A stretch of DNA of 64,000 nt, taken from assembly GCA_903844155.1 (NCBI GenBank), contig CAIMSU010000341.1:1-64000 (forward strand), read 5' to 3'. Shown here in pieces: positions 45,253-64,000 of the stretch. The position numbers and the translations under genes were made by a program. The notes under the pieces were generated by a model. It searched no databases. It was not told the DNA's origin and saw only the letters and a list, made by a program, of their open reading frames with translations. Source of the stretch: an uncultured Pseudomonadota bacterium (lineage in GTDB: Bacteria > Myxococcota_A > UBA796 > SXON01). Within the stretch, counting starts at the first letter, position 1, and each line of letters starts with the position of its first letter.

Positions 45253-45296
45253 GGTGGCTCCGGGAGCCGCGCACCTTACGGCTTCCGCCCCGTGTG

Positions 45297-47915: not shown

Positions 47916-47963
47916 GGCGGGACGGGTAATTCGAAACCCCGAAGTGGAGTACCATGCACGGCC

Positions 47964-50900
47964 ATGCCGGAGACCTTCGGACCCTACACTGTCGTCCACA
48001 CCCTCGGGCAGGGCGGGATGGGGGTGGTGTACCGCGCGCGACCGGCGGACGGCGGGCCTGACGTGGCGCTGAAGACGACGCGCAACGCCTCGCCCGAGGA
48101 GGCGGCCCGGATTCGCTCGGAGATCCACGCGCTGGCGTCGATCCGGCACCCGGGGGTGGTCAATTTCCTCGTCGATGGGGTGCGCGACGGCGTGCCCTGG
48201 TACGCGATGGAGCTCCTGGACGGCGGCACCATGCGGTTGTGGGTCCGCGACCTGTGGGAGCCGCCCGAATTCCTGATGGATGGCGACATCTCCTCCCTCG
48301 GCCGCTCGACCGGTCGGCGGTCGGACACCTGGAACGGTGACGACGACCTGCCCCCCACGGAAGAGACGGCGCCAGCGCTCGAGCCTGGCCACCGCGCCGC
48401 GGCAAACGGGCGCCTGACCGAGATCCTGACGCTCTGCCTGCGCCTCTGCGCGCCGCTGTCCAGCCTCCACGCCCGCGGACTTGTGCACCGTGACCTCAAG
48501 CCCGAGAACGTCTTCATCTGCAAGGACGGCCGGCCGGTGCTGATGGACCTCGGCCTCGTCGCCCAGGCGGGCGGCAGCATCGGCCGCGAGAAGCTGGAGG
48601 AAGGCGGCCGGATCCTTGGGACGCTGGCGTACATGTCGCCGGAGCAGGCCGAAGGCGACCTTGTCGACGCGCGCGCGGACCTGTACGCGCTTGGCGTGAT
48701 GCTGTACGAGCTGATCACCGGCGAGCCCCCGGTCCGCAAGGCCGCCGTCGCCCAGATGCTGGAGCAGATCCGCGGCGAAACGCCGCCGCTGCCCTCCCTG
48801 CTCGCCGCCGACGTCCCGCCCGAGCTGGATGAGCTCGTGATGCGGCTCCTGACCAAGTCGCCGCGCCAGCGCCTTGGGCACGCCGACGACGTCGCGGAGG
48901 CGCTCCTCGCCCTCGGCGCCACGCAGCCGGCCGACGGTCCCCCGCCGGCTACCTCCGCGTACCTCTACCGCCCGCTGCTGCGCGGACGATCGGAGCACCG
49001 CGGCGCGCTCCTCCGCCAGATCGACGCCCTCAAGGCGGGCGGCGGTGGGAGCGGCGGTGTGGTGGTGATCTCCGGCGAGTCGGGCGCCGGCAAGACCTTC
49101 CTGGCGCTGGAGGCCTCAGCGCTCGCCGGTCGACGGCGCATCGGCATCCTGACCGGCGAGTGCCTCTCCATCGCCGCGGGCGACGAGGCGCGTGGCGATG
49201 GCCGGGGCGCGCCGCTCCATCCCTTCCGTCGCTTCCTGCAGGCCTGCGCCGACCAGTGCCGGGACGGCGGCCCTGACTACGCCGAACGTCTGCTTGGGAC
49301 GCGCGCCCGCATCCTCGCCCCCTACGAGCCGAGCCTCGTCGCCACCAGCCCCTACGCCCGCCACAAGGCGCCCGAGGCGCTGGAAGGCGAACTTTCACGC
49401 GATCGGGTGGTGGCCGCGCTCCGGGAGACGCTGGCGGCGTGGGTCGCCGCCGAGGGGCCGCTCGTGCTGCTCCTCGATGACCTGCAATGGACGGACGAGC
49501 TCTCTTTTGCCGTCGTCCGTAGCCTCGACCCCGATTTTCTCGCTGCGACCCCGTTGCTGCTGATCTGCACCTGGCGCTCGGATGAGATCGGCCCAGCGCA
49601 TGAGCGGTTTGCCGCGTCGCCCCACGTCACCGTGCTGCGGCTCGCGCGCCTCGACAAGCAGGCCGTCGAGGAGATGGTCTGTGACATGCTGGCGATGACG
49701 AGCCCGCCGCAGGTCTTCGTCGACTTCCTCTCGCAGGAGACGGAGGGAAACCCCTTCTTCGTCGCCGAGTATCTCCGCATGGCGGCCAGCGAGCAGCTCC
49801 TGCGCCGGGAGCGCGGGCAGTGGGTGGCGAGCGTGGGGGCGGACGTCTCGAAGCTCCCGCAGCCGGGCTCGCTGCAAGGGCTCGTCACCCGGCGCATCGC
49901 GGGACTCTCGCCGTTCGCGATCGAGGTGCTGGAGCTGGCTGCGGTCCTCGGCCGGCACGTCGACAGCTCCACACTCCTTGGCGCGTTCTCCGGCGCTGCG
50001 ATCCGGCCGGCGATCGAGGAGCTGGAGAGCCGGCAGATCCTCGAGGTCGAGGAGGGCGGTTGGAGGTTCGTCCATGATAAATTGCGGGAAGCGGCGTTCG
50101 CGCGCGTGCCCGCGGAGCGTCGTCCGGCGCTGCATCGTGCGGCGGCTGAGGCGCTCGTTGCTGGGCGGAATGCCGTTTCGGACGAGGCGTTTGGCTGGGC
50201 GGCGTTGGCGCGGCACTGGGAGGAGGCCGGGGAGGCGCGTCGCGCGGTCGAGGCGTGGTCGCGGGCGGGCGCGCAGGCGACACGGAACTTCAGCACGTCC
50301 GAGGCCAAGGATGCGTTCCAGTCGGCGCTGATCCTCGCCGACCGGGCAGGCGCATCGGCGCTGGACCGCGCGCGCTGGGAGTCGGGGTTCGCGGAGGCGT
50401 CCTTGCTGTCCGGGGAGACGAAGTCGGGGATGGAGCACGCTGGCCTCGCGCTCGCGCACGCCGGTTTCCCGCTCCCCCGCTCCGACGCCGGCTGGTTCTT
50501 CGGGTTCCTCGGCCAGTTCGGCCGGCGCGTGCTCCAGGCCTACCTGCCGGGCCCGCTCCTGGAGACCGATCCCGGGCGGCAGGAGCGGACAGCGCTCGCG
50601 GCCCACGCGAGCCAGCGCCTGCTCGAACCCTACTTCCTCTCGAACCTGCCGCTCCAGGGCGTCTACGTCGGATTGCGGTGCATCAACCTTGGGGAGCGCG
50701 TGCCCGACACGATCCCGCTCTCCCGCGGGCTCGGCTTCATGGCGATGCTGGTGGGGGCGACGCCGTTGCGCGGAGTGGCCGACCGGTGGACGGCGCGGGC
50801 CGCTGAGCTGGCCGAGGCGAGCGGGCGCCGCGAGGTGCTCGTGTACGCGCTCAATCGAGGCGGTTGCTACAACGTGGCGATGGCGCGGTGGGACACAGTC

Positions 50901-51533
50901 GTCCAGAACGCCCGACGAGCACGGGATCTCGCAGCGCAGATCGGCGACCGGCGCGGTTTTGAGGAGGCGCACACGGTTTGGGGGCAGGCGCTGAACGGGT
51001 CCGGCCGGCTCTCGGAAGCGCTGGACGTCATCCTCGCGATGCGCGCGGCGGCCAGCAAGCGCGGCGACCGCGAAACGCTGGCGATGGCGCTGGTGAAATT
51101 CACCGAGAACCGGGTGAAGGCCGGCAAGCCCGCCGACGCGCTGGAGGCCTACGCCACGGCGCTGCCCGACATGCCGCACCACGGCGAGGGCATCCAGGCC
51201 TACTTCCACGGCGTCGCCGCCGACGCCTGCCTGCAGTCGGGCGACCTCGCGCGGGCGCGGCTGCTCGCGGACGCGGCGCGGACCGTGTTGACAAAAACAC
51301 CGCCCGCGGCCTATTTCTCCGTTCCTGGACTCGTCCACGGCGCGCAGGCCTACCTCGGGCTCTACGCCAGGCAGCGGGACCCGGACGCGCTCGCGGGGGC
51401 GCGCCAGATGACGAAGTGGCTGCTCGGCCAGGGCCGGCTCTACCCCTACGCGCAGCCCTCCGGCCTGCGGATCCAGGGCGAGCTGCTCGCCGCGCAGGGG
51501 CGGACGCTGCCGGCAAAGCGCGCGTTTGCCTGA
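47964..51533 (+). CDS. Ser/Thr protein kinase with AAA ATPase and TPR domains, interrupted near the C-terminus
   Basis: 1189 aa to the TGA at 51531. Kinase domain (1-310) with GQGGMGVVYRA, VALK, HRDLKPENVF, DLGLVAQ (DFG replaced by DLG) and SPEQ; a roughly 50-residue acidic insertion (about 95-145) separates the hinge from the catalytic loop. An AAA/STAND-type ATPase follows (Walker A GESGAGKT near 370, LVLLLDDLQW near 505), then many TPR helices to the end. The reading frame continues past the TGA with clearly coding sequence to 51692, where the stop overlaps the next gene's start. So this is a nonsense-interrupted or miscalled gene; loss of about 53 residues may or may not matter. Confidence 0.85.
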   Translation: MPETFGPYTVVHTLGQGGMGVVYRARPADGGPDVALKTTRNASPEEAARIRSEIHALASIRHPGVVNFLVDGVRDGVPWYAMELLDGGTMRLWVRDLWEPPEFLMDGDISSLGRSTGRRSDTWNGDDDLPPTEETAPALEPGHRAAANGRLTEILTLCLRLCAPLSSLHARGLVHRDLKPENVFICKDGRPVLMDLGLVAQAGGSIGREKLEEGGRILGTLAYMSPEQAEGDLVDARADLYALGVMLYELITGEPPVRKAAVAQMLEQIRGETPPLPSLLAADVPPELDELVMRLLTKSPRQRLGHADDVAEALLALGATQPADGPPPATSAYLYRPLLRGRSEHRGALLRQIDALKAGGGGSGGVVVISGESGAGKTFLALEASALAGRRRIGILTGECLSIAAGDEARGDGRGAPLHPFRRFLQACADQCRDGGPDYAERLLGTRARILAPYEPSLVATSPYARHKAPEALEGELSRDRVVAALRETLAAWVAAEGPLVLLLDDLQWTDELSFAVVRSLDPDFLAATPLLLICTWRSDEIGPAHERFAASPHVTVLRLARLDKQAVEEMVCDMLAMTSPPQVFVDFLSQETEGNPFFVAEYLRMAASEQLLRRERGQWVASVGADVSKLPQPGSLQGLVTRRIAGLSPFAIEVLELAAVLGRHVDSSTLLGAFSGAAIRPAIEELESRQILEVEEGGWRFVHDKLREAAFARVPAERRPALHRAAAEALVAGRNAVSDEAFGWAALARHWEEAGEARRAVEAWSRAGAQATRNFSTSEAKDAFQSALILADRAGASALDRARWESGFAEASLLSGETKSGMEHAGLALAHAGFPLPRSDAGWFFGFLGQFGRRVLQAYLPGPLLETDPGRQERTALAAHASQRLLEPYFLSNLPLQGVYVGLRCINLGERVPDTIPLSRGLGFMAMLVGATPLRGVADRWTARAAELAEASGRREVLVYALNRGGCYNVAMARWDTVVQNARRARDLAAQIGDRRGFEEAHTVWGQALNGSGRLSEALDVILAMRAAASKRGDRETLAMALVKFTENRVKAGKPADALEAYATALPDMPHHGEGIQAYFHGVAADACLQSGDLARARLLADAARTVLTKTPPAAYFSVPGLVHGAQAYLGLYARQRDPDALAGARQMTKWLLGQGRLYPYAQPSGLRIQGELLAAQGRTLPAKRAFA

Positions 51534-51692
51534 GCGATCGCCGAGGCGGAACGGCTGGCGATGCCGGTTGACGCAGCGCTCGCGCACCTCGCGCTGGCGC
51601 GGCTGGGCGTCGATGCGGACACGCACAGGGCCGAGGGCCAGCGCCTGCTCGCGCAGACGGGCGCGTGTGACTGGTGGACGACGGTCGGATGA
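51531..51692 (+). other. In-frame continuation of the kinase gene beyond a TGA
   Basis: TGA at 51531-51533 interrupts a frame that continues for 52 codons in TPR-like sequence (AIAEAERLAMPVDAALAHLA) to TGA at 51690-51692, which overlaps the ATG of the next gene as ATGA. A CGA-to-TGA change would restore Arg at this spot. The coupling overlap shows where the original gene ended. Confidence 0.75.
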
Positions 51693-52453
51693 CGGGCTGG
51701 GTCTGCCCGGCGTGCCATGGCGACCTGGGCGGCGACGTCGACGGGGCCGAGCGCTGCGCGGGCTGCGGGCGACGGTGGGGGAGGCGCGATGGCTTTTTAG
51801 ACTACGTCGACGAGGCGCAGGTCCGGGGGACGGACCGGTGGATGCGCGTGGTCTACCACCACCTCGCACCGCTCCACGATCCGCTGTTGGCCGGCACTTT
51901 TCGCGTCGTCCTCGGTGAGCGGCTGTCGGACGCCCGGGCGACGATCCTGCAGCGGCTCGGCGCGCAGCCCGGGGAGCGGGTGCTGGAGGTCGGCACGGGG
52001 ACCGGGCGAAACGCCCTCGGCCTCGCAAGCGCCGGCGTTGACTACGTCGGCGTGGACCTCGCCCCCGGCATGCTGCGCATCGCCCGTCGCCGACTCGCCC
52101 GCGCCGGCCGTTCGGATGTGCCCCTCGCCTTGGCGGACGCGCACGCCCTCCCCTTCCGCGACCAGTCGTTCGACCGCGTGCTCCACGTCGGCGCCGTCAA
52201 CTCCTTCCGCGATCCCGAACGGGCGCTGGCGGAGCTCGCTCGCGTCGCCCGTCCCGGCGCCGCTCTCGTCCTCGTCGACGAACAGCTCGCGGACAACGCC
52301 GATCTTGTCACGCGCGTCGCGTTCCGGGCGTCGACGTTCTACGCAACGTCCCCCTGCGTCGCCCCCGGTCGCCTCCCCGGCGCCACCATCACGTCGGTCG
52401 AGCAACTGTCGGCGTTCTTCTACCTCTTGCGCGCGAGCACCCCCGACATGTGA
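51689..52453 (+). CDS. SAM-dependent methyltransferase with N-terminal zinc ribbon
   Basis: 254 aa from ATG 51689. Residues 1-35 form a Trm112-like or zinc-ribbon segment with two CxxC pairs (VCPACHGD, CAGCGRRW). A class I methyltransferase fold follows: VLEVGTGTGRNALGLA (motif I), DLAPGMLRIARRRL (motif II), ALPFRDQSFDRVLHVGAVN (post-II), and RPGAALVLVDE. Substrate unknown. It overlaps the kinase frame's restored stop. Its own stop is the first three bases of a 26-bp inverted repeat. Confidence 0.87.
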   Translation: MTGWVCPACHGDLGGDVDGAERCAGCGRRWGRRDGFLDYVDEAQVRGTDRWMRVVYHHLAPLHDPLLAGTFRVVLGERLSDARATILQRLGAQPGERVLEVGTGTGRNALGLASAGVDYVGVDLAPGMLRIARRRLARAGRSDVPLALADAHALPFRDQSFDRVLHVGAVNSFRDPERALAELARVARPGAALVLVDEQLADNADLVTRVAFRASTFYATSPCVAPGRLPGATITSVEQLSAFFYLLRASTPDM

Positions 52454-52506
52454 AAACCGACGACGTCACTTTTCATACATATGAAAAGTGACGTCGTCGG
52501 TTTTCA
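52451..52506. repeat. Perfect 26-bp inverted repeat (palindromic element)
   Basis: Left arm TGAAAACCGACGACGTCACTTTTCAT is at 52451-52476 and its exact complement at 52481-52506; loop ACAT. The left arm begins with the stop codon of the methyltransferase. It lies between convergent genes and could end transcription both ways, although no T-run follows the stem. A related single arm occurs at 59161-59186. Confidence 0.85.
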
Positions 52507-52530
52507 TACATTCGGGTGGGGGCGCGGCGG

Positions 52531-53097
52531 TCAGGGGTTCAGGCCAGCGAGCACCTGCGCGACGAACACCGACAGCGGGCCGACGACCTGCCCGACGCCG
52601 AGATGGGCGCGACAAGCGTCCGAATGGGCCTTTTTGCCCGCGACAGCATCCCCGGCCGGCGCTGCAGCGACCGCCGCGGTGATCACAGGACCCGCGACGG
52701 TCGCCGTCCGCTCCATGCTTCGGAGCGCCGCCGAGCAGCCCGCGAGCCCGCTGTGGTACGCCGCGACCCCGCCGTAGTCCCCTCCCAAAAAGATCGCGTT
52801 GGCGACGTCGTCGATGCCGAGGCCGACCATCAGCCCCCAGTAGACGTGGATGGCGAGCTGGTCGGGCGCGCGCAGCACGGTCAGCATCGAGAGCACGCAG
52901 AGCTCCCGTCGCTCGGCGCGCATGTGCTTCTGGTCGTGGAAGAAGTACGCGCCCGCGCCCATCACCCACGGCTCGGCGCCGGGCATCGGGGCGACGAGGC
53001 TGCCGAGCGCCGCAGCGTAGGCGACGGCCGGATCGTAGCCGGCGCGCAGGTTTTTCAGGTTGGCATCGGAGAGCAGGCTGGTCAGCGGGGCGCTCAT
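52531..53097 (-). CDS. Carboxymuconolactone-decarboxylase / AhpD-like family protein
   Basis: 188 aa from ATG 53097. The family core is seen: AERRELCVLSMLTVLRAPDQLAIHVYWGLMVGLGIDDVANAIF...YGGVAAYHSGL, with the active-site His and the RxEL helix. The AhpD CxxC is not present, so no peroxiredoxin-type reductase activity is expected; CMD-fold proteins of this kind are often of unknown function. Its ATG overlaps the stop of the SDR gene by 4 bases; it is the last gene of the minus-strand lipid operon. Confidence 0.75.
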   Translation of the reverse strand: MSAPLTSLLSDANLKNLRAGYDPAVAYAAALGSLVAPMPGAEPWVMGAGAYFFHDQKHMRAERRELCVLSMLTVLRAPDQLAIHVYWGLMVGLGIDDVANAIFLGGDYGGVAAYHSGLAGCSAALRSMERTATVAGPVITAAVAAAPAGDAVAGKKAHSDACRAHLGVGQVVGPLSVFVAQVLAGLNP

Positions 53098-53927
53098 TCG
53101 GTCGTTCCGGGTGGGTGGTGGACGATGTAATCCCAAAGCGATTGCGTCTCGCCGCCCGTGAAGTCGAGGGTCGCGCCGTTGAACCACGCCAGCTCCTCGC
53201 CGGCGAGCAGGGCGATCAGCTCACCGACCTCCTCGATCCGCAGGATGCGCCCGGCCGGGATCACGGCGCGCACCGCCTCCTCGATGCGATCGGCCCCGCC
53301 GTCGCCGACCGTCGCGCGCAGGGCGTTGGTGCGGACCGCGCCAAACTTCAGCAGGTTCACCCGGATCCCGCTGGGGCCGAGCTCGAGCGCGAGGTGGCGG
53401 ACGCACACCTCCAACGCCGCCTTCGCCGCGGCCACGAGCGCCGTCCCGCGCAGGAGCTGGTCCGTCATCGGGTTGGACAGCGCCAGCAACCGGGCGCCGG
53501 GGGTCAGGAGATCGCGCTCCAGCAGCGCCTGCGTCCACCAGAGGAACGAGTGGGCCATCGCCTCAAACGTCTTCTCCACCTGCTTCGGGTGCGCCGGCAT
53601 CGGCCCCGGGCCCGAGGCCAACCGCGCCACGCTCGCGTTCGCGATGGCGTGCACGAGGATCCGCACGCTTCGGGGACCGGCGACCCGCAGGATCTCCTCG
53701 GCACCTTCCCGGGCGCTCGCGTACGTGCCCGCCTCGCCGACGCGCAGATGGCACCCCGACCCGAGCGCCTCGACCTCCCCCTGCATCCGCGCCGCCGTGT
53801 CCGGGTGATTCCCCCGGTGGATCCCGAAGATCTGCAGGTGATGGCGACGCGCCAGCGCGACGGACGCGGCCGCCCCGGTCCCCGCAGACGCGCCGAGGAT
53901 GACGGCCCACTCGCGCCCTTCGCTCAT
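53094..53927 (-). CDS. SDR-fold protein lacking the catalytic tyrosine
   Basis: 277 aa. Rossmann motif GASAGTG, GIHRGNHPDTA, an NASV region and the C-terminal WFNGATLDFTGG give a short-chain dehydrogenase fold, close to enoyl-ACP/3-ketoacyl-ACP reductases. In the active region 'RGTALVAAAKAALE' the Tyr of YxxxK is replaced by Val, and no Tyr sits at the Y-x6-K spacing of FabI. It may be a non-canonical reductase or a structural subunit. It is translated in 4-base overlap with both neighbours. Confidence 0.82.
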   Translation of the reverse strand: MSEGREWAVILGASAGTGAAASVALARRHHLQIFGIHRGNHPDTAARMQGEVEALGSGCHLRVGEAGTYASAREGAEEILRVAGPRSVRILVHAIANASVARLASGPGPMPAHPKQVEKTFEAMAHSFLWWTQALLERDLLTPGARLLALSNPMTDQLLRGTALVAAAKAALEVCVRHLALELGPSGIRVNLLKFGAVRTNALRATVGDGGADRIEEAVRAVIPAGRILRIEEVGELIALLAGEELAWFNGATLDFTGGETQSLWDYIVHHPPGTTE

Positions 53928-54655
53928 GCCGTCGCCCCGTCAAGCAACCCCTGGACCGCCGCTCGGACCCGCTGCCCGACGAGGTTCACGGCCGCTTTGT
54001 CCTTCGGATCGCGGGCGAGGTGTTCGGTGATGGGGGACCCCACGCGGCTGGTGATGCGTACCGGAAAAGGCAGGGAGAACGGCCAGAGCCCGAACGGGCC
54101 CACGCCAAGGTAGCTCGGGAGCGTGGGCGGCAGCTTCCAGCGCTTGGCGACGTCGTTCCCGTCGACCGGACTCCAGAACGTCCGGTCGACGCCGATGCCG
54201 GCGACCGGGATGATCGGCAGGCGATGCCGGATCGCCAGCTTCACAAAGCCGTTTCGCTCGCCCCAGTCGACCCGTCCCTGAACGGACGAGGGCCGGAAGC
54301 CGTCGCGCGTGCCGCCGGGGGTGACGATGATCTTGTGGCCGGCGCGGACCGCGGTCCCGAGCGCATCGTCGTCGCCCGTCAGAAAATCAAAGCCCTCGAT
54401 CAGGTGGCGCAGGACCGGGACGTCGCGGACGCCTTCGTGCATGATCGCGTGCGTGACGAGGTCGTAGCGGTCGAGCAGCAGCAGTTGGAGCATGCAGAGG
54501 TCGTGCGCCGAGGGGCGCCCGTGGTAGCCGACGATCAGGGCGGCGCCCGGCGCGAGGATGTGCTCGATGCCGTCGACGTTGTAGCGGTGCCAGCGCTGCC
54601 GGAAGCGCCAGTCGTTCACCCACCAGGCGCGGACGAGGCGCGCGCGGGTCTTCAA
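53924..54655 (-). CDS. Lysophospholipid/diacylglycerol acyltransferase-like protein
   Basis: 243 aa. 'VGYHGRPSAHDLCML' fits the acyltransferase HxxxxD-type region seen in DGAT/PlsC-like families, and 'VTPGGTRDGFRPS' corresponds to the EGTR-type substrate motif. PIIPVAGIGVDRTF and a hydrophobic segment (SYLGVGPFGLWPFSLPF) follow. It likely acylates a glycerolipid or lipid-like acceptor at the membrane. Its stop overlaps the downstream start and its start overlaps the patatin/KAS stop. Confidence 0.85.
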   Translation of the reverse strand: MKTRARLVRAWWVNDWRFRQRWHRYNVDGIEHILAPGAALIVGYHGRPSAHDLCMLQLLLLDRYDLVTHAIMHEGVRDVPVLRHLIEGFDFLTGDDDALGTAVRAGHKIIVTPGGTRDGFRPSSVQGRVDWGERNGFVKLAIRHRLPIIPVAGIGVDRTFWSPVDGNDVAKRWKLPPTLPSYLGVGPFGLWPFSLPFPVRITSRVGSPITEHLARDPKDKAAVNLVGQRVRAAVQGLLDGATA

Positions 54656-57375
54656 TTCCGCGCTCCACCCGGCTCCAGCGCCGCCGTCCGCAGCAGGATC
54701 GCCCCGTAGGACGTGCCACTTCCAACACCGGCGAGCAGCAACGTCATCCCCGGCCGCACCGACCCCGTGCGCGTTGCTTGATCGAGGCTGTAGGGCGCGC
54801 TCGCGGCGCCGAGGCTGCCGACGTCGTCGACGACGGGGTAGAGTTTTTCAGGCCCGAAGCCGAGATCCCGGGCGATCGCCGTGTAGAGCGGTCCGTTGGG
54901 CTGGTGCGGCAGGAAGCGATCGACCTCGTCGGGTCCCAGCCCCGCCGACTGCATGACCGTCCGGCTCGCGTGCCCGATGCAGGCGATGGCGGCGTCCGCC
55001 AGCTCCTTTCCGGACGGCGCGAACTGGTAGTACATGCCGGGCTGCGGGTGCGCGTGGAGGATCCGTCCGCGGAGCATCGCGTTGTTTCGCAGGTGGACCG
55101 CCAGCAATCCCTCCTCGGCCGTCCGCGCGGGCCCGATGATGCACGCAGCGGCGCCGTCCGCAAAAACCATCATCGCCCGCGGTTCTTTCGGCGAGAGGTT
55201 CCGCGAGAACGTCTCGACGGCGATGACGGCGACCGGACCCATCCCTGTCGCCACGGAGCGCGCGGCGATGTCCAGGCCGGTCAGGAAGCCGGTGCAGGTG
55301 TTGTTGACGTCAAAACAGTCGCAGGTGTCGTCGATGTCGAGTGCGGCGGCGACGTGGTTGGCGTTCGCGGTCGCCTCGCCCGCCGCGTGCATCAGGATGA
55401 GCGCCGAGCGCATCGTGTCGTTCGCGCGCTGCCAGAGGTTGAACTCGTAGAGGAACCGCCCGGCCCTCCCGGAGATCATCGGCGAGGTGGACGCCTCGTA
55501 CGCCGGGTTGGCGACGATGTTGCTCGCGATGAGCAGGTTCGCGCCCTGGTTGGCGAGCGGCGTGGTGGGGACGTTGCGCACGATGCCGCCGTCGACGTAC
55601 CGGAACCCGGAGCCGGTCGTCGGCGTGATGATGCCGGGGAAGGAGCTGGAGCAGCGCACGCCAAAACCGACGCTGCCAACGCCGATCACCGCCTCGCAGC
55701 CGGCGGAGATGTTGGTGGCGACGGGGTAGAGCGGCACCTCCAGCTCTTCGAGCCGCAGGAATTCCTGGCTGCGCGTCGCCCGCTTCAGCGCGCGGTCCAC
55801 GCCTTGCTGCAGGAAGACCGAGGAGAAGAACGCGGTGCGCGTCGTCAACTGGGCGCGGGGCGCGAACTCCTTGAGCGCGACGAATTCCTTGTCCTGGGTC
55901 GCGCACCAGAAGGCGCCGCACAACGAGCCGAAGCTCGAGCCGGACACCATGTCGATCGGGATCTTCGCCTGGCGGATCGCCTTGATGAGCGTGGTGTGCG
56001 CGAACCCCCACGAGCCTCCGCCGCCGAGCGCGATCCCGACCCGGCGCTCGGTGATGTCCCGGATCCACCGGGAGAACCGCTCCCGGTCAGCATCGGAGAG
56101 GTCCGAGAGCGTTCGGGCGCGCGCCACCCGAGCCAGATCGAAGCGCACCCTCACCGTCGACGGCGGGTAGGGTGGCTCCGACGGCAAGTAGCCGCCGCCA
56201 AGCTGCAAACACCAGTTCACCCGACCCGGGCCGAGCGGGAACGGGGGCGACTGCCAGGGCTTGCTCGAGACCACGAGCGCGCGGGTGACCGAACGACGCA
56301 GGGTGATGAGGTGCTCGCGCGGCACGGCGCTCGTGTCGAGGAGGAGATATTCGAGGTTCCCCGGCGTGTTCAGGCCGAAGCCGATCGTCGTCTCACCGGG
56401 GGCGTCCGGGTCGAACGGCACCGCCCCACGCCACACCTTGTCGGGGCCCTGGACCATCGCCTCCGCAGGCTGGCCCCTTGGGAGCAGGCGGAGGACAGCC
56501 ATGCGGTCGTCAAAGTCAGCGACCGCGGTCTGCGCGACGAGATCCGTGATCGCGCGCATCGGGAATTCGGGGTCACCCACGACGAGGAGCACCTCGACGA
56601 TCGCGCGGACCTGCTCGCCGTACACCGGGGACTTCACGGCCGCGGCACGCAGCGTCGGGGAGGCCAGCAGCGCCATCTGGAGCACAGCCAGCGGGATGCG
56701 GATGACGACGCTGTCGACGGTCGCGACGGCGTCCTCGGGCTCGCATTGCATGCCGCCCCGGGCCAACCCGCCGAACGGGGTGCCGGCAGTCACCACCGTC
56801 ACCCGCAGCCCGTCAGGCGAGACCGCCCGGATCTCGCCGCTTACAAGCAGGTACATCCCTATCGTCGGTGACGGCGCGTCGGGCCGCTCCGCCGTGAGCA
56901 CCTTGTCGCCCTTCGCAAACTTCGTCACTTCGCCCGTCATCACGATCCCCGCGAGCACAGGCACCGGCGCACCGGCCAGCCCCGGCAGCGTTTTTGACGC
57001 CGCGACCACGCCCGCGAGCCCGCGCCGCATCGTCCCCAGCGTCTCCAGCGCGTCCCCCAGCTTAGGGACGACGCGCTCCACATTCGCGAGCTTTGTTGCT
57101 GGCAAGATCCAGCCCGTCGCGCCGCTGTTGGCCCAGATGCGCTGCCTCGGCGTCCGCACCCGCGGCCAGCACGACTCGCCCAGCGTCACGCCCACTCCGA
57201 CGGCGATCGGCTCGGCGTAGAGGCCGTTCGGGAGGCGCGCGGAGACGGAGACCCGCCCGGACTTCAGGAAAAACACGCCAGCGGGCTCGGTGCCCGGCCC
57301 CTCGAACAGCGCGCCGTCGGCGAGCTCGCAGGGCTCGACCAGACCCGCCAGCGCCTCCCGCTCCGCCGGCGACAT
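54652..57375 (-). CDS. cNMP-binding / patatin phospholipase fused to C-terminal KAS III
   Basis: 907 aa from ATG 57375. N-terminal half: two cyclic-nucleotide-binding-like barrels (about 1-320), then a patatin domain with GGGGSWGFAH oxyanion loop, nucleophile GSSFG (Ser about 479) and DGG (YVDGGIVRNVP) as in neuropathy-target-esterase-like lysophospholipases. At about residue 660-690 it changes to the C-terminal two-thirds of a KAS III: DVNNTCTGF (Cys about 694), FLPHQPNG (His about 824), and VGSLGAAS, where the Asn of the GNTSAAS motif is Ser. The first ~90 residues of KAS III are missing. The frame opens upstream to 57654 but no clear start exists there; VFFFDDGCTI before 57375 may belong to it. 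Confidence 0.8.
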   Translation of the reverse strand: MSPAEREALAGLVEPCELADGALFEGPGTEPAGVFFLKSGRVSVSARLPNGLYAEPIAVGVGVTLGESCWPRVRTPRQRIWANSGATGWILPATKLANVERVVPKLGDALETLGTMRRGLAGVVAASKTLPGLAGAPVPVLAGIVMTGEVTKFAKGDKVLTAERPDAPSPTIGMYLLVSGEIRAVSPDGLRVTVVTAGTPFGGLARGGMQCEPEDAVATVDSVVIRIPLAVLQMALLASPTLRAAAVKSPVYGEQVRAIVEVLLVVGDPEFPMRAITDLVAQTAVADFDDRMAVLRLLPRGQPAEAMVQGPDKVWRGAVPFDPDAPGETTIGFGLNTPGNLEYLLLDTSAVPREHLITLRRSVTRALVVSSKPWQSPPFPLGPGRVNWCLQLGGGYLPSEPPYPPSTVRVRFDLARVARARTLSDLSDADRERFSRWIRDITERRVGIALGGGGSWGFAHTTLIKAIRQAKIPIDMVSGSSFGSLCGAFWCATQDKEFVALKEFAPRAQLTTRTAFFSSVFLQQGVDRALKRATRSQEFLRLEELEVPLYPVATNISAGCEAVIGVGSVGFGVRCSSSFPGIITPTTGSGFRYVDGGIVRNVPTTPLANQGANLLIASNIVANPAYEASTSPMISGRAGRFLYEFNLWQRANDTMRSALILMHAAGEATANANHVAAALDIDDTCDCFDVNNTCTGFLTGLDIAARSVATGMGPVAVIAVETFSRNLSPKEPRAMMVFADGAAACIIGPARTAEEGLLAVHLRNNAMLRGRILHAHPQPGMYYQFAPSGKELADAAIACIGHASRTVMQSAGLGPDEVDRFLPHQPNGPLYTAIARDLGFGPEKLYPVVDDVGSLGAASAPYSLDQATRTGSVRPGMTLLLAGVGSGTSYGAILLRTAALEPGGARN

Positions 57376-57481
57376 CCCGCGCAGCGCCGGCCACGGGTAG
57401 TCGAGGAAGTTCTTGCCCTCATTGAGGATGGTGCAGCCATCGTCGAAGAAGAAGACGTTGTTCTGGTTGTTGGGCGCGCTT

Positions 57482-58306
57482 CTACCCGCGTGTGCGGTGG
57501 AGCTCCCGCATGTGCGGTGTGACGGCTGTGAGAGGCCGTCCGACGACCCAGGTGACGGGGACGCCGAGCCAGCGCTCGCGTCCGACCTCGAACGCATAAT
57601 CGACGTCGCCCGCGGTGCCGGCCTGGGCCATCTGCCGCAGCTCGTCGGGCTCATACGACCGCAGGCAGGAGCAGAACCCGTCCCAGCCGAGCGCCAGCGG
57701 GACGACGGGGAGGGCGGTGTGCCAGAGCATCCGGCGCAGGCTTCTGGGCCGGGAGAGCGGCGACAACAGCGCCGCCAACGCGGGGAGCAGCACCATCGAC
57801 GCGGCGTAGGGGACAGATCGGGCGGTCACCTCGTAGACGACGATGGGCTGACGGGCGCGCGCGGCGTCGGCCAGCACACCGGCGGCGTCGGCGGGGCGCA
57901 GGTGATGGAGGCCGAGGCAGAGGGTGCGCAGGCCGGTCAAGTCGGCGGGGACAGCGCGGGCGTCGACGGGCGTGGAAACGTAGGTGATGCCAGCGCGATC
58001 GCGCAGGTGCGGCAGGAGCGACGGGTTCGGGTAGAGGTCCGTGAGGACCAGATCGACGGGCTCGCCGAGCGAGGTAGCGACGGCATCGCGCAGCGGGAGG
58101 ACGAGGCCGCCGCCGCCCGAGCACAGATCCACGATCCGTCGTCCGCCCGTCTCCCGCAGCAGCGCCGTCACCCGTCCGGCGATGGGCGTCCACGAGCGGA
58201 TGAGCCCGTTGAACGTCCTCAAAAAGTCCGCCTCCATCCGTCGCCAGTCCTCCGGCCACCAGGGCTCGTCCATCAATTCGGGCGCGTGGATGCGAGGAAA
58301 CGGCAT
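57482..58306 (-). CDS. SAM-dependent methyltransferase with hydrophobic segments
   Basis: 274 aa. Motif I region 'RRIVDLCSGGGGLVLPLRDA' and later DLVLTDLYPNPSLL, then LCLGLHHLRP, give a class I methyltransferase fold. Two hydrophobic segments (MVLLPALAALLSPL and MLWHTALPVVPLALGW) suggest membrane association, as expected for a lipid substrate. It starts directly after the stop of the OafA-type acyltransferase (TGAATG) and ends about 100 bases before the patatin/KAS start. Confidence 0.8.
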   Translation of the reverse strand: MPFPRIHAPELMDEPWWPEDWRRMEADFLRTFNGLIRSWTPIAGRVTALLRETGGRRIVDLCSGGGGLVLPLRDAVATSLGEPVDLVLTDLYPNPSLLPHLRDRAGITYVSTPVDARAVPADLTGLRTLCLGLHHLRPADAAGVLADAARARQPIVVYEVTARSVPYAASMVLLPALAALLSPLSRPRSLRRMLWHTALPVVPLALGWDGFCSCLRSYEPDELRQMAQAGTAGDVDYAFEVGRERWLGVPVTWVVGRPLTAVTPHMRELHRTRG

Positions 58307-59404
58307 TCAGATCCGCGCCTTCAGGCGCAGGAAGGGCCGCTCGACGAGGACGTGCAGGGCGACCGCCGCTACCGTGCTCATCGCCAAAAACGTCCCGAGG
58401 AAGGCAAAGAAACCGTCATCCCCTGCGACCGACCAGGCGAGGGTCAGGAACAGCATGTGGACGAGGTAGAGCGCGTAGGAGAGGTCGCCGACCCGCCGCA
58501 GCGGTGCCGAGGCGAGGAGCGGCGAGGCGAACGTGGGGCCGCTCACCGTCGCCAGCACGATCGCGCCAAACGCCAGCGCCAACACCGAGAACAGCGGGAC
58601 GACGTTGTACAGGGTGACAGGGTGGAGCAGGAACGGCTGTGCGAGCAAGGCGGCGAGGACGAGGCTGCTGGCGACGAGGACTCCGGCGCGCGCACGGCCG
58701 CCCAATTCACCACCGCGCCCGCGCCAGATCGCGATGGCGAGGCCGACGGCGAGGCCGTCTGCGGCGAGGTGGAAGGGGCTGCGGAGATGGTCGAAGAACG
58801 CGCCGTACGTGTGGATCTCGGGGTGCTGGCGCCAGGTGAGCCAGCGGAGGAGGGGGGACGCGAGCGATACTGACAGCGCAGCGGCGGTCCAGAAACGCTC
58901 CGGCAGACGCCGAATTGCGAGGAGCACGAAGGGGACGGTGAGGTAGAACTTCTCCTCCACCCCGAGTGACCAGAACGCGATGACGATGTTGGACGGCAGA
59001 TAGTCCTGCAGGAACAGCAGGTGGTACCCCAGCGAGACCCCGATCCCCGTTCGATTGTAGTGGTAGAACGGCACCAACCCGGCGGCGACGAGGAGCAGCA
59101 CCGTGTAGTACGCCGGCACGATCCGCAACCCGCGCCGCGCCAGATATCGCCCCCCATGTACGAAAACCGACGACGTCGCTTTTGATAGGTCGGCGAGCAA
59201 GCGCAGCACGTTGGTCCCGATGAGGAAGCCCGAGAGGACGAAGAACAAGTCGACCCCCATCCAGCCGTTGAGCAGGGGGTGCAGCCACGTCGGCGCGTCC
59301 CCCGGAAGGTGGTTCGCGTACTCCCGCCCCGCGTGTCGCCCCAGCACGAGCAGGACCGCGAGGCCGCGCAGCCCGTCCAGCTCGGGGATCTTGCGCGGGC
59401 CCAT
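58307..59404 (-). CDS. Acyltransferase family 3 (OafA/YrhL-type) membrane protein
   Basis: 365 aa from ATG 59404, overlapping the TauE/SafE stop by one base. The family start 'IPELDGLRGLAVLLVLGRHAG' has the conserved His, followed by NGWMGVDLFFVLSGFLIG and RGLRIVPAYY, about ten membrane helices and the DLSYALYLVH end. It O-acylates surface sugars or lipids. About residues 86-98 (LSKATSSVFVHGG) are encoded by a diverged arm of the palindromic element at 52451. Confidence 0.93.
   Translation of the reverse strand: MGPRKIPELDGLRGLAVLLVLGRHAGREYANHLPGDAPTWLHPLLNGWMGVDLFFVLSGFLIGTNVLRLLADLSKATSSVFVHGGRYLARRGLRIVPAYYTVLLLVAAGLVPFYHYNRTGIGVSLGYHLLFLQDYLPSNIVIAFWSLGVEEKFYLTVPFVLLAIRRLPERFWTAAALSVSLASPLLRWLTWRQHPEIHTYGAFFDHLRSPFHLAADGLAVGLAIAIWRGRGGELGGRARAGVLVASSLVLAALLAQPFLLHPVTLYNVVPLFSVLALAFGAIVLATVSGPTFASPLLASAPLRRVGDLSYALYLVHMLFLTLAWSVAGDDGFFAFLGTFLAMSTVAAVALHVLVERPFLRLKARI
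59161..59186. repeat. Diverged single arm of the palindromic element inside a gene
   Basis: CGAAAACCGACGACGTCGCTTTTGAT at 59161-59186 matches the arm at 52451-52476 at 23 of 26 positions, preceded in both places by 'catgt' within 5 bases. It lies inside the acyltransferase gene in frame, coding a short Ser/Thr-rich loop, and has no second arm. Confidence 0.7.
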
Positions 59405-60249
59405 CAGCGCCCCGGGGCCAGCCACGCGAGAAGCAGGCCGAACTCCGCTCGAATCAGGTCACCCCAGGCGTCGAACGCCAGCTTCGCGCACAGGCCGAGG
59501 CAGACGGCGAGCACCACCCAGCGGATCAGCTTGTCGCCCCCACGAATTGCTGCGCGAACGCCGAGCGTTGCGCCGATGAACTGGGCGAGCGCCATCGGCA
59601 GCGCGACCGCCCAGGCCACCTGCCCCTGCCAGGCGAGCAAGCCAAAAGCTGCGAGGTTCGAGGCGAAGTTTACGACCTTCGCGTTCGCCGACCCCGACTT
59701 CATCGACGTCCCGAGCAGGAGCACCTGCCCGATGATGAGGAACGTGCCGGTCCCTGGCCCAAAAAAGCCGTCGTAGCAGCCGATCACGACCGCGAGGCCG
59801 ACGGCGATGGCGAGGGCGGTGTTGGGCGAGAGGTTTTTGGGCTTTGGGTCCAGCGGCGGCCGGAAGGTCATGAACACGGCGACGATGACCAGCAGCACCA
59901 TCACCACGGGCCGCAGCACGGCCGGGCTGACCGACAGCAGCAGCACAGCACCTAGCAGCGACCCGACAAACCCCGCGATGAAGCTCGGGATCGCCCGGTC
60001 ACGCTCCACGAGCCCCGCGCGCCAGAAGCTCCACGTCGCCGCCCCCGAGCCCCACACCGCCTGGCCCTTGTTGGTGCCGAACGCCATGTGGATCGGTAGT
60101 TTGGTCGCCAGCAAAGCCGGCACGGTGATCAAGCCGCCGCCGCCCGCGATGGCGTCGAAAAACCCCGCGGTGAGGGCCGCAAAGATCAAGCCGGCGACGG
60201 AGACGGGCGTGAGGCCGACGGTGGCCCAGGCGGCGAGGAGCGCGTTCAC
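59404..60249 (-). CDS. TauE/SafE family membrane permease
   Basis: 281 aa, about eight hydrophobic helices. The opening 'VAGLIFAALTAGFFDAIAGGGGLITVPALL' and the later 'GCYDGFFGPGTGTFLIIGQVLLLG' are the two internally related family motifs. Such proteins export sulfite, sulfonates or other small organic anions. Located between the diacylglycerol-kinase-like gene (4-base overlap) and the acyltransferase (1-base overlap), it may export a by-product of the lipid pathway; this is inference. Confidence 0.92.
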   Translation of the reverse strand: MNALLAAWATVGLTPVSVAGLIFAALTAGFFDAIAGGGGLITVPALLATKLPIHMAFGTNKGQAVWGSGAATWSFWRAGLVERDRAIPSFIAGFVGSLLGAVLLLSVSPAVLRPVVMVLLVIVAVFMTFRPPLDPKPKNLSPNTALAIAVGLAVVIGCYDGFFGPGTGTFLIIGQVLLLGTSMKSGSANAKVVNFASNLAAFGLLAWQGQVAWAVALPMALAQFIGATLGVRAAIRGGDKLIRWVVLAVCLGLCAKLAFDAWGDLIRAEFGLLLAWLAPGR

Positions 60250-61220
60250 CGCATCACCGGCGTCCCGAGCGCGATCGGTGCGGTCGCGGAGACACGCAGC
60301 TCGGGTCCGGCGCGATGGAAGTCGCCGTCGATCATGTAGACGAGGTCGGTCTCCCCATGCAACGAGAACGCGGCGAGGGTGTGTTGCAGGATCTCCGGGG
60401 TTTTTGGGGCGCGGGCCAGAAAAATCCGCGGAAGTTCAAGGACGAAGGTGAACGCCGAGCACGCGACCCCGAGCACGTGCATCCGTCCAGGGTTCGTCAG
60501 GCAGGGGAAGAAGGCCCGAAACCCGAAGCCGATGTCGTCGACCGTCCCCGCGCCGACGGCGAGGTACCGGGTCGGCGGCCATTCTTCCGGCGCGCGGACC
60601 CGCACCGTCACGGGCAGCATCAGCCGCCGGATCGCCGGTCCCTGGATGAACGAGGACAAGATCCCGCGCCCGAGGATCCACAGCGCCTTCGCGGGCGTCG
60701 GCTCGCTGCCCTCGTAGTAGACCTCCAGGAAGTTGGAGATGAGCCCGTTGCCGAAGAGAAAACCGTACTGCGGCGGGGTGTTCTGGCCCGGGGCGTCCAC
60801 GCGGAGCAGGCTCCGGGCCACACGGGGGACGTCCGCTGGCCGGGAATAGGCGAGCAGCGCCGCCAGCCAGGCCTCCGGCCGTCGCCCAAAAAGCCCCAAC
60901 ATCCGGCCGCGAACGCCGTAGCTCCCCGAGCTTGTGTTCATCGTGCCGCCGGGCAGCACCTGCACCAGCGGGAGCCGGTCGAGCCCGACCCGGTTCACCA
61001 GCGCCGTGAGGACAACGTGCACGGTGCCGTCGCCACCATTGATGGCCAGGACGTCCGGCGGGTCGGCAAAGATGGCGTCGATCGCCGCGTCCAGGCTTTC
61101 GCCGTCGCCCGCCGGGTAGACCCGTCCTCGCCCGTCCAGGAGCGCCCCGAGCCGCTCGGCGATCCCCGGATCCTGCCGATTCTGCCGGGACTTCGGGTTG
61201 GTGATGACGTCAACGCGCAG
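60246..61220 (-). CDS. Diacylglycerol-kinase-family lipid kinase, non-ATG start
   Basis: About 324 aa. The signature 'VLAINGGDGTVHVVLTAL' (GGDGT, ATP-binding) lies upstream of the first ATG/GTG near 61022, so the gene must begin earlier. The only plausible start after the preceding in-frame TGA is CTG 61220, giving MRVDVITNPKSRQNRQ, which is the NPxSG-type N-terminus of the DAGK family. PGGTMN (PGGT/N motif) and IDGDFHRAG near the end follow. It would phosphorylate diacylglycerol, ceramide-like or undecaprenol-like lipids. The 4 bases between UbiA stop and this start support an operon. Confidence 0.83.
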   Translation of the reverse strand: MRVDVITNPKSRQNRQDPGIAERLGALLDGRGRVYPAGDGESLDAAIDAIFADPPDVLAINGGDGTVHVVLTALVNRVGLDRLPLVQVLPGGTMNTSSGSYGVRGRMLGLFGRRPEAWLAALLAYSRPADVPRVARSLLRVDAPGQNTPPQYGFLFGNGLISNFLEVYYEGSEPTPAKALWILGRGILSSFIQGPAIRRLMLPVTVRVRAPEEWPPTRYLAVGAGTVDDIGFGFRAFFPCLTNPGRMHVLGVACSAFTFVLELPRIFLARAPKTPEILQHTLAAFSLHGETDLVYMIDGDFHRAGPELRVSATAPIALGTPVMR

Positions 61221-61224
61221 CGGA

Positions 61225-62145
61225 TCAGCCCGTCCCGATCACGGCCACATGGGGCGCGAAGAAGATGACGGCCACGGCGGTCACCGCGTACAGCACGGCG
61301 GCCACCAGGATGGGGACGTCCTTGAGCAGCGTCTCGTCGGGTGCTGCGCCCTCGCCCTTCTGATCCACGAGGTAGATGTACCGGAAGATGACGTAGAGCA
61401 CGTACGGGAAGGTCAGCAGCAGCCAGGGCGTCGGGGAGCCGAGCACCGTGTAGAGCGCGTAGCTGATGATCGTGCCCGAGGTCGTAATCGCCTGGAATTC
61501 CTGGAGCATCGCCGGCGAGTAGCTGTCCAGCGCCTTCCGGGTGCCCGTCTTTTTGCCTTCCAGCAGCAGGATCTCTCCCCGGCGCTTGTTGAAGCCGAGG
61601 AACAACGCTAAAAATGTCGTGCAGAGCAAGAGCCACGGCGAGATCGGCACGTGGATCGCCACCGCGCCGGCCACCGCCCGCCAGAGGTAGCAGGCGGACA
61701 AGAACATGACGTCGAGGATGACGTAGTGCTTGAACACGGTCGAGTACGAGAGCGTCGTCGCGAAATAGCAGAGCGCGCACACCAGGAAGGGCACGCCGAC
61801 GACCCAGGCGATGCCCAACGAGGTCGCCAGCGTGACCGCCATCAGCGCCCAGGCGCCGCCCGGGGTGAGCTCACCCGCGGCGATTGGCCGGTGGCGCTTC
61901 TTGGGGTGGAGCCGGTCGGCATCGGCGTCGCGGAGGTCGTTGTAGACATAGCCGGTGCTGGAGAGCAGGCAGAAGCTGGCGAATGCGCCAATGCACAGCG
62001 CCCAGTCATCCAGCCGCCCGAAGTTGGACGAAAAGATGAGGGCCGGGAACAACAGCACGTTCTTCGCCCACTGCTTGGGGCGCAGGGCGGCCATCGCCGC
62101 CATCACGGCGGAGCGACGCGGCACTCCGGGATGCACATCGGTCAC
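61225..62145 (-). CDS. UbiA-family prenyltransferase, decaprenyl-phosphate phosphoribosyltransferase type
   Basis: 306 aa from GTG 62145, one base after the kinase stop. LRPKQWAKNVLLFPALIFS and the Asp-rich motif YNDLRDADADRLHPKKRHRPIAAGEL are as in the phosphoribosyl-transferring subgroup, followed by SYSTVFKHYVILDVMFLSACYLWRAVAGA. About nine hydrophobic helices. By homology it transfers 5-phosphoribose from PRPP to a polyprenyl phosphate, as in arabinan synthesis; here the acceptor and purpose are unknown. No DprE1/E2-type partner is seen in the window. Confidence 0.88.
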   Translation of the reverse strand: MTDVHPGVPRRSAVMAAMAALRPKQWAKNVLLFPALIFSSNFGRLDDWALCIGAFASFCLLSSTGYVYNDLRDADADRLHPKKRHRPIAAGELTPGGAWALMAVTLATSLGIAWVVGVPFLVCALCYFATTLSYSTVFKHYVILDVMFLSACYLWRAVAGAVAIHVPISPWLLLCTTFLALFLGFNKRRGEILLLEGKKTGTRKALDSYSPAMLQEFQAITTSGTIISYALYTVLGSPTPWLLLTFPYVLYVIFRYIYLVDQKGEGAAPDETLLKDVPILVAAVLYAVTAVAVIFFAPHVAVIGTG

Positions 62146-62146
62146 G

Positions 62147-64000
62147 TCATTTTCCTTCCGGTCCGGCAGCCACCGGGGGTTGCGTCGCGGGTGCAGCGGG
62201 CGTGAAGTCGAGGATTCGCATCTGGTTGGGCTGGAGCTGGAGGTGCGCTTCGACGGGGCCGTACCCCGGCCCGGAAACGCGCACCACAGCGGGCGTGTTG
62301 GCGACGAGCGCGGTCGTCCACGGCGGGTTGCCGGTCAACGGCTTGCCGTCCACGGCGGCCGTGAAGCCAGCGGGCGCGCGGATCTCGATGGCGGGCGGGG
62401 CGGCCATCACGCCCATCCCGGCCCCCTGTCCGCCGGGCGCCTTGCTCGTGCCGATCACAAAACCGCACGCGAGCCCGAGCATCAGGATGAAAAAGCAAAC
62501 CGTGACGTAGGCGAGGTGCACCCCGTTCGGGGTTCGGTACACCACGCGGGGGCGACTGTCGGCGAGGTCCGGCCGGGCGTCGGCGCGCACGGACAGGCGG
62601 TCCGGGCGGGGCGCGTCGAGGGCCGGTCGCCGCATGACCTGCCCCCGATCGGCCGGCTGGTCCATCGGCTGTCGGGCGGCGACGCGGGGGTCCGGGTGCG
62701 TGGGGGGCCCGAACGGGTCGGGCCGGATCACGGTCGCCGCGTCCGACCACTGAGCCGGCCCGGAGGGGTCGGGGAGGTAGCCGGGGCCGAGGGTGGGATT
62801 CCGGATCAACGTGGACTCTTCCGCGAGTCCCATCGGTGGGAGGCGTGTATGGACCGGCGCCGGCGGTGCAGCGGGCGCGGGGCGGGACGCGGCCGGCGGG
62901 GGCCTGGTGGCCGACGGCGCGACGGGCGGAGGCGCGGTCGCCATGCGGGCGGGTGCGGCGGGCGGGGGCTTCGTCGATGACGGCGCGACGGGCGGAGGCG
63001 CGGTCGCCATGCGGGCGGGTGCGGCGGGCGGGCGCGAGGGGGCGCCAAGGGCGCCGGGGCCGGGAACGGGGCGTGAGATGCCCGTTGACCCGCGGGGTGA
63101 GGAGGAGGCCGGCGCGGATCGGGCTGCCGTCGGCACCTCCGGCGCTGCCGGGGTGGCGGTCGCCGAGGCGGCCTTCGCGGCCGCTGCCTTCGCGGCTCGC
63201 GCGTACGGGCCGGTGTCGATCTCAGAGGGCTTCGGCGCCGGCTTCTCGCCGTCCTGGAGGAGCCCACGCACAAACGTCGCCAGCGTCGCGGCCGAGAAGA
63301 TGAACCCGGAGTCATGGAAGAAGGTGTTCAGCGCGTCCTTGAACGCGGTCGCGGTCGGGTAGCGCTCCGCCGGGTCAAGGCGAAGGGCGGCGGCGATCAC
63401 GAGGTCGAGGGCGGGCGGCACATCCGGGTTGATGTGGCTCGGGGGTTCGACGACGCCGCGTCGGACCGCCTCAAGCGTCTTCAGGTCTCCCGCTTCGCGG
63501 AACGGGTGCCGTCCGGTCAGCAGCTCGTAGAAGACCACCCCCGCGGCAAAAAGATCCGCCCGTTGATCCAGGGGGCGTCCCGCCGCCTGCTCGGGCGCCA
63601 TGTAGTCAAAACGCCCCTTGATGACGCCGGTCTGCGTCTCGGCCGCCTTGACCGTCGCCTTGGCGATGCCAAAGTCGGTGAGCTTGACCTCCCCCTGCAC
63701 GCTCACGAGCACGTTGGCGGGCGAGATGTCGCGGTGGATGATGTCGAGCGGGACCTGCACGCCGTCGCGAACGACGGTGCGGTTGTGCGCGTACTCCAGC
63801 CCCTTGAGCATCTCGATGAGCACGTAGACGGCATGCGGAAAGGGCAGGGTGATCCCTTTCTTTGCGCAGCGCTCGAGGATCTGCCCGAGGTCCTTGCCGT
63901 TCACGTATTCCATGGCGATGAAGTACTGCTCGTCGACGGCGCCAAGATCGAGGATCTGCACGATGTTCGCGTGCGAGAGCAGCCCCGCGATCTTTGCCTC
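62147..64000 (-). CDS. Hanks-type Ser/Thr protein kinase with PEGA-like tail (5' end outside window)
   Basis: Partial: at least 617 aa, with the ATP-binding loop beyond the window's right edge (the frame continues EAKIAGLLSHANIVQILD at the edge). HRDISPANVLV catalytic loop, DFGIAKA and APEQA, then kinase C-lobe to about 230 aa after the edge. A Pro/Ala-rich linker with two near-identical 'APARMATAPPPVAPS' blocks follows, then a membrane helix (VCFFILMLGLACGFVIG) and a beta-rich PEGA-like extracytoplasmic end. It leads the lipid operon with a 1-base gap to UbiA, suggesting that phosphorylation of operon enzymes or sensing at the envelope is part of the system. Confidence 0.88.
   Translation of the reverse strand, partial: EAKIAGLLSHANIVQILDLGAVDEQYFIAMEYVNGKDLGQILERCAKKGITLPFPHAVYVLIEMLKGLEYAHNRTVVRDGVQVPLDIIHRDISPANVLVSVQGEVKLTDFGIAKATVKAAETQTGVIKGRFDYMAPEQAAGRPLDQRADLFAAGVVFYELLTGRHPFREAGDLKTLEAVRRGVVEPPSHINPDVPPALDLVIAAALRLDPAERYPTATAFKDALNTFFHDSGFIFSAATLATFVRGLLQDGEKPAPKPSEIDTGPYARAAKAAAAKAASATATPAAPEVPTAARSAPASSSPRGSTGISRPVPGPGALGAPSRPPAAPARMATAPPPVAPSSTKPPPAAPARMATAPPPVAPSATRPPPAASRPAPAAPPAPVHTRLPPMGLAEESTLIRNPTLGPGYLPDPSGPAQWSDAATVIRPDPFGPPTHPDPRVAARQPMDQPADRGQVMRRPALDAPRPDRLSVRADARPDLADSRPRVVYRTPNGVHLAYVTVCFFILMLGLACGFVIGTSKAPGGQGAGMGVMAAPPAIEIRAPAGFTAAVDGKPLTGNPPWTTALVANTPAVVRVSGPGYGPVEAHLQLQPNQMRILDFTPAAPATQPPVAAGPEGK

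Follow-up and report, generated by a model that had tools for sequence, protein, structure and literature searches.

A block of ten minus-strand genes, spanning 52531 to beyond position 64000, lies at one end of the window, the 64,000-nucleotide stretch of contig CAIMSU010000341.1 from an uncultured myxobacterial lineage that was analysed here. The most plausible explanation of this block, and one that we consider well favoured by comparison with genomes of the same genus, is that it is a composite in which a conserved locus is interrupted after its acyltransferase-3 (AT3) gene by a cassette of about 10.3 kb. The conserved locus reads kinase, UbiA, DAGK, TauE and AT3 (unit A), with another kinase gene and one for a beta-helix protein next in line, and the cassette (unit B) holds a ketosynthase (KAS) and a short-chain dehydrogenase/reductase (SDR) among its genes. 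A preliminary description of the same DNA had presented the ten genes as one near-gapless lipid operon led by a Ser/Thr kinase. Tight spacing on one strand is insufficient to call a pathway, and comparison with the congeners resolves this 'operon' into two parts, a locus of core genes and a cassette that can move.

Gene block and its counterparts in congeners

The features are as follows, with the basis of each assignment in brackets.
58307 to past 64000, minus strand: unit A overall (kinase, UbiA, DAGK-like, TauE/SafE, acyltransferase-3)
62147-64000, minus strand: unit A gene 1, Ser/Thr kinase with C-terminal membrane helix (Pfam Pkinase)
61225-62145, minus strand: unit A gene 2, UbiA family, polyprenyl-phosphate phosphoribosyltransferase type (Pfam UbiA, NCBIfam equivalogs)
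60246-61220, minus strand: unit A gene 3, DAG-kinase-like lipid kinase, probable CTG start (Pfam DAGK_cat)
59404-60249, minus strand: unit A gene 4, TauE/SafE membrane protein (Pfam TauE)
58307-59404, minus strand: unit A gene 5, AT3 membrane protein (Pfam Acyl_transf_3)
47964-58306, both strands: unit B overall, cassette of about 10.3 kb
57482-58306, minus strand: methyltransferase MT6, class I S-adenosylmethionine (SAM) fold, first cassette gene (model and Foldseek matches)
54652-57375, minus strand: cNMP-binding/patatin open reading frame (ORF) run into KAS III (Pfam cNMP_binding, Patatin, ACP_syn_III, ACP_syn_III_C)
55368-55382, no strand: putative deletion scar at the patatin-KAS joint, about 440 bp missing relative to genome G003 (DNA alignment)
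53924-54655, minus strand: PlsC/DGAT-like acyltransferase, TTG start (Pfam Acyltransferase and DAGAT above cut-off)
53094-53927, minus strand: SDR without catalytic Tyr (Pfam adh_short_C2)
52531-53097, minus strand: CMD-like protein (G003 homologue above the Pfam cut-off)
51689-52453, plus strand: methyltransferase MT11 (Pfam Methyltransf_11)
47964-51533, plus strand: STK-AAA kinase, a Ser/Thr kinase with an AAA ATPase domain and a long C-terminal region (Pfam Pkinase, AAA_16)
45297-47915, minus strand: flanking second kinase, contiguous with unit A in genomes G003 and G002
43654-45252, minus strand: flanking beta-helix protein, contiguous with unit A in the same two genomes

The ten genes and the tight junctions reported for them were borne out from the ORFs. 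The kinase stop (62147) is separated from the UbiA start (62145) by one base, UbiA (end 61225) from DAGK (61220) by four bases, DAGK (end 60246) overlaps TauE (start 60249) by four bases, TauE overlaps the ATG of AT3 by one base (both 59404), and AT3 (end 58307) abuts the ATG of MT6 (58306). The first in-frame ATG after the MT6 stop (57482) lies 106 bases further on, at 57375, and the open frame of the patatin/KAS reaches up to 57654, beyond that ATG. The last three junctions are 4-base overlaps (54652/54655, 53924/53927 and 53094/53097).

The window's genome (8.1 Mb in 375 contigs) was compared with genomes of the same genus, among them G002, G003 and G004. In DNA alignments, window positions 43679-47936 and 59463-64000 both match contig 28 of G003, where the two parts stand about 610 bases apart, and positions 48000-58294 match a different contig, 85. 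These G003 contigs are 209 and 155 kb long and both matches lie well inside them. The UbiA loci of G003 and G002 thus lack the unit B genes; in G002 no cassette genes stand between TauE and the second kinase. G004 carries TauE and AT3 followed by a small convergent gene, the start of which resembles the small gene at the empty site of G003. Its AT3 (a 62% match) is located on a contig continuing from the DAGK end. This arrangement indicates that AT3 is a member of unit A and that the insertion begins directly after it.

The reciprocal comparison gives the same picture at the other site. In G003 the cassette is flanked by an acyl-CoA dehydrogenase gene, the end of which overlaps the start of MT6, and by an AMP-ligase gene. 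No cassette lies between the sequences that match these flanks in G002, where some 35 bases separate them, or on contig 117 of the window's genome, where the distance is about 560 bases. Two species of the genus therefore hold the same block at unrelated sites. The MT6 gene of the window is 74% identical to that of the G003 cassette, and G004 retains only MT6 and the N-terminal part of patatin, at another location.

The original proposal, that the kinase at 62147 governs all ten genes as a single pathway for a lipid or lipid-glycan, is very improbable: the same-strand packing and overlapping starts and stops would fit it, but the two gene sets occupy separate contigs in G003, the UbiA set stands without patatin, KAS, PlsC or SDR beside it in G003, G002 and G004, and unit A occurs without unit B in most relatives. 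The dispersal that the preliminary description named as evidence against a conserved unit is thus what the neighbouring genomes display. Two points nevertheless weigh against the composite as we describe it. All close relatives are metagenome bins, the fused patatin/KAS frame being known from one assembly, and the abutting AT3 and MT6 mean that units A and B could be co-transcribed here.

How the cassette came to occupy two sites was approached through its divergence from G003. Synonymous divergence is 0.65-0.96 for unit A and its flanks and 0.76-1.35 for the cassette, so that recent transfer between the two congeners is rejected, the cassette having diverged like core genes. Judged from these figures, both movement within lineages and differential loss of two ancestral copies may account for the distribution. 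A transposon or site-specific mobile element was also rejected: the cassette ends share no exact 10-base word, direct or inverted, in either the window or G003, and no composition change was seen marking the cassette.

The patatin/KAS joint

The 'patatin/KAS fusion' of the preliminary description does not hold up as a gene type, since in G003 these are two separate genes: the patatin gene is complete, and its stop and the start of KAS share four bases. Both are likewise intact and separate in G020 and G021. The DNA match to G003 stops at 55382 (L036 17303) and restarts at 55368 (L036 17756), and the roughly 440 bases missing from the window correspond to the loss of about 57 C-terminal patatin residues and about 90 N-terminal KAS residues. 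In relatives, each KAS that was read is full-length and a gene of its own, and the joint in the window is unique among intact loci. The alignment suggests that the 'fusion' is either the scar of an approximately 440-bp deletion or an assembly error. A natural deletion is made believable by the related cassette of G019 (L082:4655-6440), which carries deletions of 3.2 kb and 5.1 kb compared with G020 (94% DNA identity), the first of which brings the opening codons of patatin into frame with the final codons of KAS. With such a deletion the KAS step would probably be lost in the window's genome.

The evolutionary rates weigh against that reading. The remnant has a dN/dS of 0.09 relative to G003, without relaxed constraint, and a relative rate test gave equal change on both branches (5 vs 5). 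The joint is therefore very recent, an assembly error, or part of a gene whose KAS remnant is still constrained. Assembly error, with two complete genes in the organism, is a serious possibility that we rate somewhat short of even. The uniqueness of the joint among the KAS genes read, the strong constraint on a remnant that does not change faster, and the origin of the sequence in a short-read metagenome bin all fit this explanation; the in-frame patatin-KAS joint in G019 argues for a real deletion instead, and no exact repeat at the joint accounts for a misassembly.

A working enzyme that combines lipase and ketosynthase in a single chain is unlikely. The frame is open through the joint, the KAS Cys and His are kept and constraint is not relaxed, but the KAS lacks its first 90 or so residues, the patatin lacks its C-terminus, and the arrangement was found in no other genome. 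The model of the remnant, although FabH-like, is also mediocre (pLDDT 70.7, and 52.6-56.3 for the next four models). A purpose-built two-function fusion was set aside on the same grounds, the joint being unique and both halves truncated.

Distribution, enzymes and possible product of unit B

The occurrence of unit B outside the genus was assessed by searching a profile of its PlsC-like protein against 379 sampled Myxococcota genomes. Strong matches to the family (E 7e-62 or better) number 44 and fall in 42 of these genomes, the window's genome included, with a clear drop below this set to more distant relatives near 1e-46. Genes found nearby at 44 distinct loci outside the window include the SDR (38), KAS III (36), the C-terminal region of the kinase-AAA protein (25), MT11 (24), the CMD-like protein (23) and patatin (22); several of the missing neighbours are from loci at contig ends. 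KAS and SDR are both adjacent and on the same strand at 28 of the 44, and neither was beside any of nine loci of generic PlsC relatives. Gene order differs between families, so it is the gene set and not a single arrangement that is conserved, and no additional gene family was seen recurring widely across the cluster loci. A cytochrome P450-like gene, assigned by eye from its opening residues, stands near the cluster in G023 (L045:13875-15176) and belongs to a family present at four cluster loci. In G274 (L158) two cluster-type acyltransferase genes occur on one contig with a KAS near each, resembling two side-by-side cassettes.

Of the preliminary description a smaller version stands: genes 6 to 10 are members of a conserved lipid-type cluster. 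Its link between a Ser/Thr kinase and lipid genes also stands in part: a kinase does travel with the cluster, yet its recurrence at cluster loci identifies it as the opposite-strand STK-AAA kinase (47964-51533) and not the kinase at 62147. From these comparisons the lipid-type cluster of unit B is real, extends more widely than first noted and is movable. No description of the gene set was found in the literature library searched, which is incomplete. An anti-phage defence role was rejected because the PADLOC matches reflect generic kinase or methyltransferase similarity only.

The KAS of unit B resembles FabH-type KAS III in fold and sequence (best PDB match of the G003 protein, E 1e-35) and in its active Cys and His, which are kept in the 41 aligned sequences (one row is gapped at Cys). 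It departs from that type in the Asn of the Cys-His-Asn triad, which is Ser in 29 of the 41, the window included, and the window copy also lacks the N-terminal 90 or so residues, so that the two-half thiolase fold is incomplete in the window and complete in relatives. FabL (3oic) is the nearest solved structure to the SDR by profile, and like reductases of the FabL/FabI type the SDR keeps a glycine-rich cofactor motif (G12, G16 and G18 invariant in the alignment) and the Lys, invariant in 40 of 40 sequences. Unlike them, it has the catalytic Tyr in none of the 40, at neither the YxxxK nor the Yx6K position; Ile or Val stands at the YxxxK Tyr position in all. Given the Asn-to-Ser change and the absent Tyr, and judging from the mechanisms known for KAS III and SDR enzymes, neither decarboxylative condensation nor the usual reduction of a carbonyl or enoyl group is assured.

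The remaining enzymes are assigned with varying margins. The PlsC-like protein exceeds the Pfam Acyltransferase cut-off (28.5 bits vs 23) and fails the HX4D motif, its invariant H45 and D52 being spaced more widely. MT6 has no Pfam match, and its modest model (pLDDT 69) matches SAM methyltransferases in Foldseek. The profiles of these two proteins found no sequence relatives in the PDB. The CMD-like protein of the window scores below the Pfam cut-off (17.3 vs 23) and its G003 homologue above.

OleABCD olefin clusters likewise place a thiolase-fold KAS near an SDR. Unit B shares this arrangement, but the OleB hydrolase and OleC ligase families were not seen recurring at the cluster loci. The AMP-ligase adjoining the G003 cassette is a core gene, which the window's genome and G002 also carry, with no cassette beside it. 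An olefin cluster was rejected for these reasons.

Taken together, the gene content suggests that unit B is an accessory, kinase-associated cluster for acyl-lipid biosynthesis or remodelling. One may speculate that patatin releases acyl chains from a membrane lipid under cyclic-nucleotide control, that the KAS III-like enzyme takes the acyl group on its Cys for transfer or condensation, and that the PlsC/DGAT-like enzyme esterifies the product. The SDR without Tyr would then carry out a non-standard reduction or serve a binding role, the methyltransferases could cap the product, and the STK-AAA kinase would be a likely regulator. It counts against this proposal that a lipid function follows from family membership only. 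More tentatively, unit B could represent an undescribed Myxococcota pathway for a lipid or lipid signal, in which a Cys-His-Ser FabH-type enzyme and a Tyr-less SDR perform non-standard acyl chemistry under the STK-AAA kinase, spread or lost as a block of about 10 kb that sits seamlessly between host genes with no visible mobile element.

The chief competitor to a lipid function, which we hold to be possible though doubtful, is a polyketide-like or signalling small molecule, in whose synthesis the SDR and the CMD-like protein would take a non-catalytic or non-redox part. An uneven distribution, a pair of methyltransferases, a large kinase, and KAS and SDR active sites that depart from the standard would all be typical of specialised metabolism. 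Against it, no acyl carrier protein, polyketide synthase, nonribosomal peptide synthetase or exporter family was seen recurring across the loci, the acyltransferase belongs with the PlsC/DGAT lipid enzymes, and half of the loci have a patatin. With two active sites that deviate from the textbook, this recurrent Myxococcota gene set nonetheless offers a concrete target, and its occurrence in a cultivated carrier, Corallococcus sicarius CA040B, means that the product can be sought.

The UbiA locus

The kinase of unit A begins at contig position 64183, 183 bases beyond the window. Of 58 relatives, 55 have UbiA, almost all of them just once, and the kinase lies immediately upstream of it at 14 of the 16 loci of the order that were read; at one of the other two, UbiA lies just 928 bases from a contig end. 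The kinase-UbiA pair is thus kept throughout the order. Only within this genus is UbiA followed by DAGK and TauE (TauE after DAGK in G002 and G003).

The assignment of UbiA to phosphoribosyl-polyprenyl transfer was upheld, as the protein exceeds the cut-offs of two NCBIfam equivalogs for decaprenyl-phosphate phosphoribosyltransferase (256.9 bits vs 234 and 214.6 vs 207). In other Gram-negative bacteria, phosphoribosyltransferases of this kind catalyse the first step towards pentofuranose donors (PMC11127046). Unit A is probably functionally separate from unit B, its likely product being a polyprenyl-phospho-ribose that serves as donor for a glycan containing pentofuranose. In passing these models UbiA resembles the DPPR synthase Rv3806c and the three-component pentofuranose systems (PMC11127046). 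Unlike in those systems, no phosphatase, DprE1/E2 or glycosyltransferase gene adjoins it, and a Pfam search found no partners of the donor pathway within unit A. A DprE1-like oxidase is encoded far from UbiA, on contig 70 of the window's genome (L185:1459-2928), and scores 286 bits, below the 500-bit cut-off of the model.

The 4-base gap between UbiA and DAGK is correct as first given, but only with a CTG start for DAGK, which has no ATG, GTG or TTG before codon 67 or so. CTG opens the conserved N-terminus both here and in three other genomes of the genus, AGGAGG precedes that codon in one genome (G003), and only a protein translated from it scores above the Pfam DAGK_cat threshold (35.2 bits, cut-off 23.6). 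Initiation at CTG is therefore probable.

At the far side of the locus, the beta-helix protein (43654-45252) carries MopE-type metal-binding and thrombospondin type 3 motifs, and the UbiA loci of G003 and G002 both retain it next to the second kinase.

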